64,000 bases of DNA from Mitsuaria sp. GD03876. Its GTDB lineage: Bacteria > Pseudomonadota > Gammaproteobacteria > Burkholderiales > Burkholderiaceae_C. Positions 9,193 through 28,262 of this stretch are shown here, one piece after another. A model generated the notes under the pieces. The model was not told the DNA's origin, ran no database searches, and saw only the letters and a list, made by a program, of their open reading frames with translations. The stretch is taken from positions 1 through 64,000 of the forward strand of contig NZ_JAOCCU010000018.1 in the NCBI RefSeq assembly GCF_029840635.1. The letters are read 5' to 3'. Both the position numbers and the translations under genes were made by a program. Within the stretch, counting starts at the first letter, position 1. Every line of letters begins with the position of its first letter.

Positions 9193-9300
9193 CGGTTCGT
9201 CTCTGGCGTGCTGGGAGAGGAGGCGCTCATGCCGCGCCGCGTGGCGGGTCGGGCCGGGTGAACGGCGGGCCCGCCGATGTGCGGGACAATCGAGGGCTCC

Positions 9301-11169
<1,869 letters not shown>

Positions 11170-11223: not shown

Positions 11224-11252
11224 AAAAACGCCCGGCAGTGCCGGGCGTTTTT
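11224..11252. terminator. Bidirectional terminator after recQ
   Basis: A symmetric hairpin, AAAAACGCCCGGC pairing with GCCGGGCGTTTTT around AGT, gives a T-run on both strands. It ends recQ and the minus-strand small gene at 11318-11608. Confidence 0.92.
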
Positions 11253-11317
11253 CATTGGCGATCGCTACAGCTGGATCCGTCGCGGTCGCCGTCCACCGAC
11301 AGCGCAACCGCTGGAGC

Positions 11318-11608
11318 TCAGCAGAGCTGGGTCGTGCAGCCGACCTGGGCGGCCGAGGCGAGTTGCTGGCCGTCGGCCGACGTGTCGCGGCGGCCGGTGA
11401 TGTAGACGGTGGGCAGTTGCTCGCGCTTGGCGGTGATGACCACCGGGTCCAGCGTGATCACGGCGGCGCGCAGGTCGCGCTGTTCCTGCACGTGCAGCAG
11501 GCTGACGGCGATGGCCAGCGTCGCGCCGATGCCGAAGGCGAAGGCCTTGAAGCTCGCGCCCAGGCGGGTGCTGGTGCGGCGGGTGGTCTTGGAAGTGGTG
11601 GTGCTCAA
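11318..11608 (-). CDS. Small exported or membrane-anchored protein, paralogue A, with TonB-box-like repeats
   Basis: A 96-residue protein of no family I recognise. It has a basic N-terminus, one hydrophobic helix at about residues 21-42 and a short polar tail with two near-identical units, LDPVVITAKR and LPTVYITGRR, then a Cys pair at the end (GCTTQLC). The start is TTG; it is supported by the paralogue at 11932-12177, where the same leader (AGGAGATCGAC) precedes an ATG at the equivalent site. The units resemble the N-terminal TonB-box region of TonB-dependent receptors (LPxVxxxG), as in the receptor at 25989-28262, which has LPQVKIDG. The protein would sit in the inner membrane or, if cleaved, in the periplasm. 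Confidence 0.7.
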   Translation of the reverse strand: MSTTTSKTTRRTSTRLGASFKAFAFGIGATLAIAVSLLHVQEQRDLRAAVITLDPVVITAKREQLPTVYITGRRDTSADGQQLASAAQVGCTTQLC

Positions 11609-11931
11609 GTCGATCTCCTGAAGGGGTTGCGTGTGTCAGTGAAGTCAGTGTCGTCATTGCCGGTCCGCTTCGCGAGGCACAAGCGACGAATGCGCGCGGC
11701 GGCGGAGTGAACTGCTCAGGCTCGCGACGAATGGATGAACCAAAACCCGTCGATCGCTCACACGTCCCATTCCATCGGTATTCCCGGCGATTCGAGGGTG
11801 GTGTCCGCGGACACTCCGGACAGGCTTGGACAAAGCAAAACGCCCGGCGATTGCCGGGCGTTTTGCGTGAAGGGACCGAGGGCTGTTCAGACCGCGGATC
11901 CCCTCCGCCGAGACAGCACAACCATCGGAGC
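11609..11931. repeat. Leader of paralogue A, duplicated upstream of paralogue B
   Basis: About 320 bases without a gene. The first hundred bases match the leader of the second small gene (12178-12290): both contain the Shine-Dalgarno segment and the identical 17-mer AGTCAGTGTCGTCATTG (11643-11659 and 12213-12229), and both carry GCGGCGG(A/C)GTGAACTGC further out. A terminator at 11835-11866 separates the units. The gene plus leader was therefore duplicated as a unit. Confidence 0.7.
11835..11866. terminator. Terminator between the two small paralogues
   Basis: GCAAAACGCCCGGC pairs with GCCGGGCGTTTTGC over four bases. Read on the minus strand it ends the transcript of paralogue B, so each paralogue appears to be a separate transcription unit. 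Its stem core is the same as the terminator after paralogue A. Confidence 0.88.
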
Positions 11932-12177
11932 TCAGAAGGCCGAGGCGACCTGGCCGGCGTCGTCCGTCGTGGCGCGGCGGCCGGTGACGACGACGGTGGG
12001 GAGCTGCTCGCGCTTGACGGTGACGACCACCGGATCCAGCGTGACGACCGAGGCGCGCAGCTCGCGTTGACCCTGGGCGTGGGCGATGCCGAAGGCCAGG
12101 GCCAGCGAGGCGATGGTGCCGAAGGCGACGGCCTTGATGGTGGTGGCGGTGGCGGACGTGATGTTCAGGTGGCTCAT
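11932..12177 (-). CDS. Small exported protein, paralogue B, with TonB-box-like repeats
   Basis: An 81-residue paralogue of the gene at 11318-11608. A hydrophobic helix at about residues 14-33 ends in AHAQ, a plausible signal peptidase I site, so a mature peptide of about 46 residues may be released into the periplasm. The shared core is RELRASVVTLDPVVVTVKR followed by EQLPTVVVTGRR: two tandem copies of a V-V-V-T-x-(K/R)-R unit. The C-terminus lacks the Cys pair of paralogue A. The ATG has AAGGAGATCGAC in front. No known function; the repeats look like TonB-box regions of outer membrane receptors without any barrel. Confidence 0.75.
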   Translation of the reverse strand: MSHLNITSATATTIKAVAFGTIASLALAFGIAHAQGQRELRASVVTLDPVVVTVKREQLPTVVVTGRRATTDDAGQVASAF

Positions 12178-12390
12178 GTCGATCTCCTTGAAGGGGTTGG
12201 CTGTGTCGATGGAGTCAGTGTCGTCATTGGTTCCCTACCTTTCGAGGTGGAAGCGATGAAGCTGCATCGCGGCGGCGTGAACTGCATCCGCGCCTGACGA
12301 ACGTCAGCCTTCGACGATGACCCGCTTCGTCCGCCGCATCCGCCGCATCCGCCGAAGCCACCGTGGCCCGCCACCGGCTCGCGCGACCCG

Positions 12391-12424
12391 GGAAAAAAAG
12401 AAGCCCGCTGGTCAGGCGGGCTTC
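12391..12424 (-). terminator. Terminator of the 60-residue small protein gene
   Basis: On the minus strand GAAGCCCGC pairs with GCGGGCTTC, followed by a run of seven T residues; a textbook intrinsic terminator. Confidence 0.9.
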
Positions 12425-12475: not shown

Positions 12476-12658
12476 TCATCCGCGCGGCTTGCTGGCCTGT
12501 TCGGCCTGAGGTCCCGGCATGGTCTGCTCGGCCCAGTGCTGGGGACCGATGGGCGACGGACGCATGGCTTCGTTCGCGTCCGCCAGGCACAAGGCGATGA
12601 CGGCGGCGCTGGCCACGGCGGCCAGGGCGGTGAGGAAGGTCTTTGCGGCGTCGTTCAT
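12476..12658 (-). CDS. Small membrane protein, 60 residues, unknown
   Basis: The protein starts MNDAAKTFLTALAAVASAAVIALCLADANEAM (segment given by its ends: basic start, hydrophobic helix at residues 8-26, then an acidic turn). The remaining 30 residues are polar and Pro/Gln-rich. The upstream in-frame extension has no ribosome site, while ATG 12658 follows CAGGGGACC. A strong terminator lies directly downstream, which supports a real, separately transcribed gene. It lies next to the two small paralogues but shares no clear sequence with them. Function unknown. Confidence 0.6.
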   Translation of the reverse strand: MNDAAKTFLTALAAVASAAVIALCLADANEAMRPSPIGPQHWAEQTMPGPQAEQASKPRG

Positions 12659-25988: not shown

Positions 25989-28262
25989 TCAGAAACCGAT
26001 GTTGGCCATCAGGGTCGCGGCACGCGGAGCGCCCAGCACCAGGCGGCTGCCGCCGTTGTTCAGCGAGGACATGTATTCCTTGTCGAACAGGTTGGTGACG
26101 TTGAGCTGCAGCGTGAGGTTCTTGTTGACGCGGTAGGCGCCCATCACGTCGACCACGGTGTACGACGGCAGCGTCGACAGGCCGTTGGACGGCGTGGCGG
26201 CCACGGTGATCACGCGCTTCTGCTCGGCGGTGTGGCGCACGCCGCCGCCGATGGTGAAGTCACCCCACTGGTACGAGTTCCACAGCGTGGCGGACCACTT
26301 CGGCGTCCAGCGCACGCCGTCCGTGACGGTCTGCACGCCGGTCGTCGCGTTGACGCTGCGCTGGCTCAGCGCCTTGGCGTCCATCGTCTGGAAGCCGGCG
26401 GTGATCTGCCAGAAGTTGGTGATCTGGCCCACGGCCGCCAGCTCGATGCCCTGCACGCGGGTCTTGCCGCTCTGCGTGGCGACGTTGGTCACCGCGTCCA
26501 CCGAGACCTGGCCGTCGTTCTCGCTGCGGTACAGCGCGGCGGTCAGGTTCAGCTTCTTGTTGAGCAGGTCCCACTTCGTGCCGATCTCGTAGTTCTTGGT
26601 CTCCTGCGCTTCGGCGGAGGTGCCGTTCTGGCCCGAGGCGGCCAGCGTCGAGTTCGCGCCGCCCGGCGGGGTCAGCGAGTTCGCGGCGGCGGCGTAGACG
26701 GTGGCGTTGTCGGCGAGCTTGTACAGCGCGGCGAGGTTCCAGCTGGTGACCCACTTGGCGGTGTCCAGCGCGCCGGTGGTGGCGCTGCTGTACTTGACCT
26801 TGTAGTGCTCGGTGCGCAGGCCGGCGGTGAGCTTCAGCGCATCGGTCACGGAGATCGTGTCCAGCGCGTAGATCGCGGCGGTGGTCGTGCTGCCCGAGGT
26901 GTCGGCGGCCGGGTTGCGGGTGGAGCCGCCCAGGTCGACGTTGGGGTTCGGGTGGTACAGGTTGGCGACGTTGGTGCCGGCCGGGATCACGGCGGTGTAG
27001 CCGCGGTTGTCCTGGCTCTCGTACATCAGCTCGATGCCGGTGGACAGGTCATGCTTGATGCCGCCGGTGGCCAGCGTGGCGTTGACGCTGGTCTGGTTGG
27101 CCAGGATCTCGTTGGTCTGGTTGACGCGCTGGCGCGAGCGGCTGATGGTCCACGTGTTCTGGTCGGCCGGGTTCACCGCGACGATCGCGTTGATGCCGGT
27201 GACCATGCGGTCCATGTAGGTGCGGCCGTAGCGGGAGATGTTGCGCACCGTCATCTGGTTGCCGATGTCCATCTCGAGCTTGGCGGAGACCATGTCCGCC
27301 TTCACGTCCTCGTAGTCGTGGACGCTGCCGTAGAAATTCTTGCTGTCGATCTTGGGCGCGGCCATCAGCGCGGCGGCCTGCGCCGGCGTGACGGTGGCCG
27401 AGGTCACGGCCGTGTAGCCGGGCCAGCCGATCGTCGGGATGCCGCCGTCCGGGCGGTTGTTCTGGCGCAGGTGCTGCGAGTACAGGAAGAAGCGGGTCGG
27501 CGTGTTCAGGCCGAATGCGATCGACGGCGCGATGCCGTAGTTCTTGCGCTTGACCTCGTCGCGGCCCGGGACGCCGTAGTCCTGCCACACCGCGTTCAGG
27601 CGCACGGCGCTGTTGTCGAGGATGCGCTGGTTGACGTCGACCGAGGCGCGCTTGCGGCTCGCGGTGCCGACGGTGACGGTGCCGTCGATCGAGTTGTCCA
27701 GCTGCGGCAGCTTGGTGATCAGGTTGATGTAGCCGGCGCTGGCGGCGCGGCCGGTGTCGGCGCCCGCCGGGCCCTTCACCACTTCGATCTGCTCGATGTT
27801 GAACACGTCGCGCGTGACCGCGCCCAGGTCGCGGATGCCGTCGACGAAGGTCGAGGTGCTGGCGCTGAAGCCGCGCATCTGGAAGGTGTCGCCGGCGGAG
27901 GTGTTGCCGTTCTCGCCCAGCTGCATCGTGATGCCCGGGGTGTTCTGCAGCGCCTCGATCAGCGAGACCGCGCCCTGCTCGCGCAGCACTTCCTTCTTGA
28001 TCACCGAGATCGTCTTGGGCGTTTCCAGCAGCGGCTGGGTCAGCTTGGACGAGGCGCTCTTGTCGGCCTTGTAGGGGGCCTGCGCGGTGCCGTCGATCTT
28101 GACCTGCGGCAGGTAGGGCGCGCCGGAGGCGGACGCGGCCGACGTGGACGCGTCGGCCGGGGCGGGGGCTTCGGCGGCGTGCGCCAGCGGCAGGGTCAGG
28201 GAGGCGGCCAGGGCAGCCAGCGGGGCCACCGCATGCTTGCGGCTCTTGATGTAGCGGGACAT
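25989..28262 (-). CDS. fiu: TonB-dependent catecholate siderophore receptor, Fiu-like
   Basis: A 757-residue outer membrane receptor. A signal peptide ends at AHA near residue 29; a TonB-box-like LPQVKIDG follows near 50, then the plug domain (ETPKTISVIKKEVLREQGAVSLIEALQNTPG, QMRGF, DGIRDLGAVTRDVFNIEQIEVVKGP). The rest is a 22-strand barrel ending in LVLGAPRAATLMANIGF with a terminal Phe. The plug and the start of the barrel match Fiu/CirA-type catecholate receptors. It has a Fur box upstream and is the first gene of a cluster with piuC. Specific ligand not determined from sequence. Confidence 0.92.
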   Translation of the reverse strand: MSRYIKSRKHAVAPLAALAASLTLPLAHAAEAPAPADASTSAASASGAPYLPQVKIDGTAQAPYKADKSASSKLTQPLLETPKTISVIKKEVLREQGAVSLIEALQNTPGITMQLGENGNTSAGDTFQMRGFSASTSTFVDGIRDLGAVTRDVFNIEQIEVVKGPAGADTGRAASAGYINLITKLPQLDNSIDGTVTVGTASRKRASVDVNQRILDNSAVRLNAVWQDYGVPGRDEVKRKNYGIAPSIAFGLNTPTRFFLYSQHLRQNNRPDGGIPTIGWPGYTAVTSATVTPAQAAALMAAPKIDSKNFYGSVHDYEDVKADMVSAKLEMDIGNQMTVRNISRYGRTYMDRMVTGINAIVAVNPADQNTWTISRSRQRVNQTNEILANQTSVNATLATGGIKHDLSTGIELMYESQDNRGYTAVIPAGTNVANLYHPNPNVDLGGSTRNPAADTSGSTTTAAIYALDTISVTDALKLTAGLRTEHYKVKYSSATTGALDTAKWVTSWNLAALYKLADNATVYAAAANSLTPPGGANSTLAASGQNGTSAEAQETKNYEIGTKWDLLNKKLNLTAALYRSENDGQVSVDAVTNVATQSGKTRVQGIELAAVGQITNFWQITAGFQTMDAKALSQRSVNATTGVQTVTDGVRWTPKWSATLWNSYQWGDFTIGGGVRHTAEQKRVITVAATPSNGLSTLPSYTVVDVMGAYRVNKNLTLQLNVTNLFDKEYMSSLNNGGSRLVLGAPRAATLMANIGF

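Follow-up and report, generated by a model that had tools for sequence, protein, structure and literature searches.

Genes A and B of Mitsuaria sp. GD03876, a bacterium of the Roseateles group, belong to a family of small, probably exported proteins in which purifying selection is strongest on two TonB-box-like segments (boxes), the most constrained part. None of the libraries searched (Pfam and NCBIfam) has a name for the family. We tentatively propose, with a little less than even confidence, that two TonB boxes form its working part, and that they would face the periplasm and buffer, hold or redirect TonB. The computed basis of this reading is the conservation of the boxes, their doubling, and their agreement in sequence with the TonB boxes of the bacterium's own receptors. 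Overall, the interpretation given in an earlier note on this DNA, of free TonB-box peptides that compete with or tune receptors, is partly supported.

Genes A and B and their locus

The window, that is the whole stretch of DNA analysed, is 64,000 nt long. Three small minus-strand genes (a 60-residue gene, B and A) fill the interval between recQ and about 12660. The features referred to below are these:

9277-11169 (+): open reading frame, putative recQ, the convergent conserved neighbour
11318-11608 (-): gene A, 96 residues, TTG start with AGGAG, two boxes, C-terminal CTTQLC, no evident cleavage site
11321-11338 (-): C-terminal Cys pair of A, CTTQLC, from the translation
11387-11416 (-): box 2 of A, LPTVYITGRR, from the translation; dN/dS of the element within the genus, 0.14
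11423-11452 (-): box 1 of A, LDPVVITAKR, from the translation; dN/dS of the element within the genus, 0.18
11609-11668 (-): conserved leader of A, TGACGACACTGACTTCACTGACAC...AGGAGATCGAC, from comparison of upstream regions
11683-11715 (-): upstream direct-repeat element of A, a pattern match, repeats phased 20-21 bases
11932-12177 (-): gene B, 81 residues, ATG start with AAGGAG, AHA/Q site, two boxes, no Cys pair
11974-12003 (-): box 2 of B, LPTVVVTGRR, from the translation
12010-12039 (-): box 1 of B, LDPVVVTVKR, from the translation
12076-12177 (-): signal peptide of B up to AHA/Q, predicted by eye and by a crude rule
12178-12237 (-): conserved leader of B, from comparison of upstream regions
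12253-12285 (-): upstream direct-repeat element of B, a pattern match, phased repeats
12476-12658 (-): third small gene, 60 residues, similar helix, conserved PGPQAEQASKPRG tail, no box
27732-28031 (-): Plug domain of a TonB-dependent receptor with the box LPQVKIDG, from a Plug match

Both reading frames are present as the earlier note had described them, adjacent and in tandem, and their products are paralogues (59% identity across 71 residues, B residues 10-80). Each gene has a ribosome site and a conserved leader, the latter also claimed beforehand and borne out by comparing the upstream regions of A and B. The TTG of A is the sole non-ATG start among the 64 copies collected from the genus. 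Each gene had also been credited with its own terminator. GC-rich hairpins with short T-runs are indeed visible by eye below A (about 11229-11257) and below B (about 11838-11868), but the terminator scan listed neither, its one entry here (12400-12424) lying below the third small gene.

The box unit that fits both genes is L-x-x-V-x-[IV]-x-x-[KR]-R, with the consensus LDPVV[IV]TxKR for box 1 and LPTV[VY][IV]TGRR for box 2. The unit first proposed, V-V-x-T-x-(K/R)-R, was right in being doubled but too narrow, as the second copy in A reads VYITGRR. An N-terminal helix in both A and B supports, as a prediction from sequence, the export signal that had been assigned to them. By eye and by a crude rule, B has a canonical-looking AHA/Q site and A has no cleavage site. 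The description of the products as free peptides thus fits the B type, by prediction, whereas the A type looks membrane-anchored.

Family members, constraint and two forms

A single-sequence search at E ≤ 0.01 gave a match in 16 of 60 genomes, and these were all 16 genomes drawn from the genus, the bacterium's own included. In G007 the match was weak (E 0.003), and it (L064) yielded no family reading frame. Relatives bearing the family include Mitsuaria chitosanitabida, Roseateles noduli and a metagenome assembly labelled Rubrivivax. The 16 genomes supplied 64 copies, 63 of them distinct, and both boxes were present in 61 of the 63. A helix that had lost the repeat was named in the earlier note as contrary evidence, and such evidence was found in part: the two remaining members have lost box 1 and keep box 2, and the 60-residue neighbour has a similar helix but no box.

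Across the bacterial family as a whole, profile A1 (39 rows; up to 17 candidates scored per genome) had matches at E ≤ 0.01 in at least 53 of 299 genomes, belonging to at least 28 of 141 genera, some of the matches being receptors; judging by open-frame size, some weak ones (for example in G088 and G147) are probably receptor N-termini. Profile A2 (E ≤ 1e-4) matched, besides the bacterium's own genome, at least 6 of 300 genomes of the order, one through a receptor N-terminus, and at least 1 of 369 genomes of the class, through receptors only, with up to 18 and 14 candidates scored per genome, respectively. A two-box reading frame was found in 25 of 28 loci examined, mostly from other genera; the exceptions were L132, L133 and L135, and L132 has two boxes by eye. 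This set gave 29 reading frames, including two from the genus, L112 (also among the 64 copies) and L183. In all, 91 distinct members of 76-108 residues were collected, with start codons picked by a ribosome-site rule. Those from other genera often read KLERVVIxGKR ... QLPRVVVxGRR. The family is thus met again in related genera.

Two further relatives were seen in the bacterium's own genome. L183 (G000:C64:6754-7011) has the N-terminus MNTIRCYDRF and two LPTVV boxes, and L199 (G000:C54:29303-29422) has a single box, LARLLITGKR.

The family had been held to have no known name, and no model for it exists in either library. Neither A nor B had a Pfam match up to E 10; in NCBIfam A had none and B only CbiN (E 0.056), far below cut-off. 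No toxin domain was recognised in A or B by either. For the 38 members of A2 the matches were scattered, the best being ATP-grasp_4 in Pfam (E 0.017) and an MFS exporter in NCBIfam (E 0.0012), while two members weakly matched the NCBIfam model of the TonB-dependent siderophore receptor RhtA (E 0.068 or worse). A PDB search gave a best E of 0.71.

Within the genus, the two boxes have the lowest dN/dS (box 1, 0.18; box 2, 0.14), followed by the helix region (0.27) and the tail (0.43), and the N-terminal tip reaches 1.6. The estimates come from 604 of 1953 pairs, those with an identity of 60% or more across 60 or more codons; the pairs are not independent of one another. The proposed pattern of a conserved core with diverging ends is therefore present, and the possibility that the genes are not translated is contradicted by it. 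With 64 copies and strongly selected boxes, A and B did not arise by chance.

A C-terminal Cys pair (C-x(4-6)-C at the extreme end), possibly a disulphide, occurs in 29 of the 91 distinct members and in several genera. Of the 63 distinct genus members 17 have it; the crude rule finds no AxA site in 16 of these 17, but one in each of the 46 members without the Cys pair. Cys-pair copies number one or two in 15 of the 16 genus genomes (none in G007, as collected) and non-Cys copies one to eight. Each of the 15 genus recQ loci, from 15 of the 16 genomes, contains a Cys-pair copy. The genus thus has two forms, one with the Cys pair and no evident cleavage site, kept beside recQ, and one that is cleavable and amplified; the A type is predicted to be anchored and the B type released. 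Outside the genus this split fails, an AxA site being present in 8 of 12 Cys-pair members (crude rule). In other genera recQ adjoins family genes in eight loci, with a partial recQ match about 1 kb away in L131; it was not found in the short stretches available for four Cys-pair loci (L128, L129, L130 and L137).

The third small gene had a tblastn match in each of the 15 genus recQ loci, of which the weakest (L061, E 0.065) is poorer than a chance-looking match in L202 (E 0.04). Its helix resembles those of three box-bearing members from other genera (phmmer E 2e-5 to 9e-5, small set), and matches receptor N-termini from E 0.018 in the same set. The helix is probably a shared export module, and it is not tied to the boxes, because the 60-residue gene has a similar helix without a box.

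The boxes and the TonB boxes of receptors

The earlier note had pointed to a true TonB-dependent receptor in the window with LPQVKIDG at the corresponding site, and its Plug domain was duly located. The whole genome gave 54 Plug matches, and TonB_C matches numbered five above cut-off and one below. A box matrix was built from 27 distinct 10-mers of the small proteins of the genus, with no receptor included, and scored against 53 of the 54 receptor N-termini; C76, at a contig edge, was left out and C55, with a stop within the match, was kept for its N-terminus. The matrix scored ≥4 in 47 receptors, ≥6 in 41 and ≥8 in 34. Among 1485 background windows of 75 residues from 265 long reading frames, picked greedily and some surely antisense to real genes, the corresponding numbers were 29, 6 and 2; by eye, the two top windows belong to an NTPase-like protein and a doubtful frame. 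Shuffling the receptor residues gave a mean of 1.0 of 53 at ≥4 (maximum 4), and reversing the matrix gave 3 of 53. Column-permuted matrices gave a mean of 1.8 of 53, but one reached 22 of 53, which makes this the weaker control. The best receptor window begins a median of 19 residues ahead of the Plug match. One member from another genus (L121) carries LETVVVTGKR. That the segments of A and B are TonB-box-like, as first suggested, is well supported; the boxes are tied to the TonB boxes of real receptors because the matrix recognises these.

Within the 75-residue stretch, exactly one window scored ≥4 in 47 receptors and none in the other 6, as against two in the small proteins. This count bears on whether A and B are decaying or accidental receptor fragments, or untranslated, as a helix followed by a box is how a receptor begins. 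We regard this as very improbable: the proteins have two boxes where each of the 47 scoring receptors has one, their dN/dS is low, ribosome sites and leaders are conserved, and the locus is conserved in 15 of 16 genus genomes. Receptor fragments or pseudogenes were rejected on the two boxes and the low dN/dS.

Carriage of the family goes with receptor number. In the 19 carrier genera (family matches at E ≤ 1e-6) the median number of Plug domains was 39, against 6 in 52 non-carrier genera, or 7.4 and 1.9 per megabase, respectively (p 1e-6), and at a mean genome size of ≥4.4 Mb (15 genera each) it was 42 against 18 (p 1e-4). Genome size and phylogeny confound this association, and the weak carriers probably include some receptor N-termini. 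Counts were made in 52 carriers (the 53 minus G000) and in 52 of 246 non-carriers, in handle order with G023 left out. There are exceptions: clear members occur in genus g132 (E 2e-9 to 3e-8), which has only 2-5 Plug domains, and two g115 genomes (E 5e-8 and 6e-7) have 5 and 8. Plug domains are present in every one of the 52 non-carrier genomes searched, so that receptors do not need the family.

A different reading of the same data is that the boxes are a general beta-strand motif for another periplasmic partner or for self-association, their likeness to TonB boxes being convergence. Short hydrophobic beta motifs are simple, the g132 members coexist with very few receptors, outside the genus ITG is often replaced by IVGKR or IEGRR, and one permuted matrix recognised 22 of 53 receptors. 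Convergence would have to account, however, for an in-register match, L-[EDP]-x-V-x-[VI]-x-G, to receptors of the same genome that all but vanishes on reversal (3/53) or shuffling (about 1/53), for boxes that sit at the same place after an export signal, and for the association with receptor number. We consider it rather unlikely. Counted against TonB boxes as the working part are likewise the permuted matrix, the two genus members without box 1, the few receptors of g132 and g115, a locus partner that shares the helix without a box, and the constant neighbour, which is recQ; an informal look at the neighbours noticed no gene of TonB function.

Possible roles of the paired boxes

Receptor boxes pair as beta-strands with the C-terminal domains of TonB. 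We propose that, after Sec export, the boxes of A and B would do the same, and that in cells with dozens of receptors competing for a few TonBs the proteins would hold TonB, buffer it or redirect it. A forms, with their C-terminal Cys pair, would be anchored in the inner membrane near TonB-ExbBD, and the amplified B forms would be released as soluble competitors. We infer TonB binding, competition with receptors and their buffering from the sequences; buffering or competition would be the simplest use of a protein that is little more than two boxes.

Several known systems resemble the family in part. TonB-dependent receptors (Plug PF07715 and barrel) share with A and B an export signal and, after it, the box L-[EDP]-x-V-x-[VI]-x-[GA], whereas the small proteins (76-108 residues) lack Plug and barrel and have two boxes instead of one. 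A synthetic TonB-box pentapeptide, reportedly described by Tuckman and Osburne in 1992, is likewise a box alone that occupies TonB; it is added from outside, whereas A and B are encoded, doubled and conserved and have an export signal. In one study, ETVIV pentapeptide was added to E. coli to stop TonB from acting (PMC5413942). Colicins and pyocins are likewise non-receptor proteins with a TonB box (PMC8546555, PMC7593965), but they are large toxins entering from outside and A and B have no known domain. Among open-licence PMC texts, screened mainly by title and the opening of the abstract, no paper on a natural protein of TonB boxes alone was found.

The main rival to buffering or competition is an exported-peptide role. 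TonB moves colicins across envelopes, and A and B might be precursors of exported peptides, signal or bacteriocin-like, with boxes for TonB transit and KR/RR pairs as possible processing sites. Parallels exist outside the bacterial family. Genus g43, which belongs to another bacterial family, has in three genomes a GG-leader peptide with a pair of boxes of the LEKITVTAKR / LEKVVVTAKR kind:

L202 7964-8197 (+): GG-leader peptide with two box-like units
L204 7343-7726 (+): GG-leader peptide with two box-like units
L193: GG-leader peptide with two box-like units

In G459 and G554 the transporters beside the peptides scored 909 and 896 bits for NHLP ABC1 (cut-off 853), and 673 and 683 bits, under the cut-off of 709, for NHLP ABC2; in G057 an ABC1-like reading frame lies near the peptide (by eye only). 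Doubled boxes therefore occur on another export route too, because these peptides adjoin NHLP transporters. The NHLP GG-leader peptides (L202, L203 and L204) are, like A and B, small, with an export leader and two box-like units; they differ in leader, exporter and bacterial family, with no likeness outside the boxes by eye. Other genes near the g43 peptides encode a cyclic-nucleotide-binding protein in L202 and an ANTAR response regulator in L204. Genes for His_kinase and LytTR proteins adjoin two further small proteins that have an N-terminal helix:

L205 5524-5901 (+): small protein with three box-like units
L206 6650-6940 (+): small protein with two box-like units

The peptides beside NHLP exporters and the kinase and LytTR neighbours of L205 and L206 are both consistent with an exported-peptide role, as are the multicopy genes with variable ends and the control of bacteriocin genes by LytTR regulators described in PMC6193735. 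In the genus, however, the neighbour is recQ, and no exporter, immunity or modification gene was noticed in an informal look at the Burkholderiaceae copies. The periplasm is the location suggested by the Sec-type helices, the recQ locus common to several genera favours vertical inheritance, and a plasmid collection had no family match. We judge an exported-peptide role unlikely and keep the TonB reading as our preference.

We know of no settled account of how a few TonBs are shared among dozens of receptors. A natural, conserved, encoded TonB-box protein would, if confirmed, regulate that sharing directly and offer a ready means of blocking TonB. The TonB-box reading also gives this unnamed family of small Burkholderiales proteins a concrete hypothesis that can be tested. 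A bolder version, possible but doubtful in our view, is that receptor-rich bacteria encode a TonB-control layer of tiny two-box proteins, anchored and released, that would ration or store TonB, the same trick having been adopted separately on NHLP GG-leader peptides.

Expression of the family might be switched by a response regulator binding the phased upstream repeats. The two elements of the leader are present in 74 and 68 of the 91 upstream regions. The same regions contain 125 YTCRYSSC-type sites, against 17 (sd 4) in mononucleotide shuffles, which ignore shared ancestry, and among 55 pairs of sites 42 have a spacing of 20-21 or 40-41 bases. The upstream pattern occurred at six places in 4 of 14 genomes, each adjoining a family copy, and nowhere in the other 10. 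Most LytTR regulators bind 9-11-base repeats spaced 11-13, without a common consensus (PMC4847170, PMC6193735). The Burkholderiaceae stretches searched, which had short flanks in the case of other genera, contained no LytTR pair like that of L205, and LytTR control of the family is a guess. A scan gave no sigma-70-type promoter, and all 17 of 17 Rfam matches were under gathering scores.

A paired-repeat search of the bacterium's own genome was uninformative, with 4 matches, none a family copy, against 1 control match. By eye, L208 and L210 seemingly lie inside open frames and L209 has no obvious gene. Direct repeats of the GTTCATCGC type with about 11-base phasing were also seen in this genome near the middle of L207, upstream of a small secreted-looking protein.
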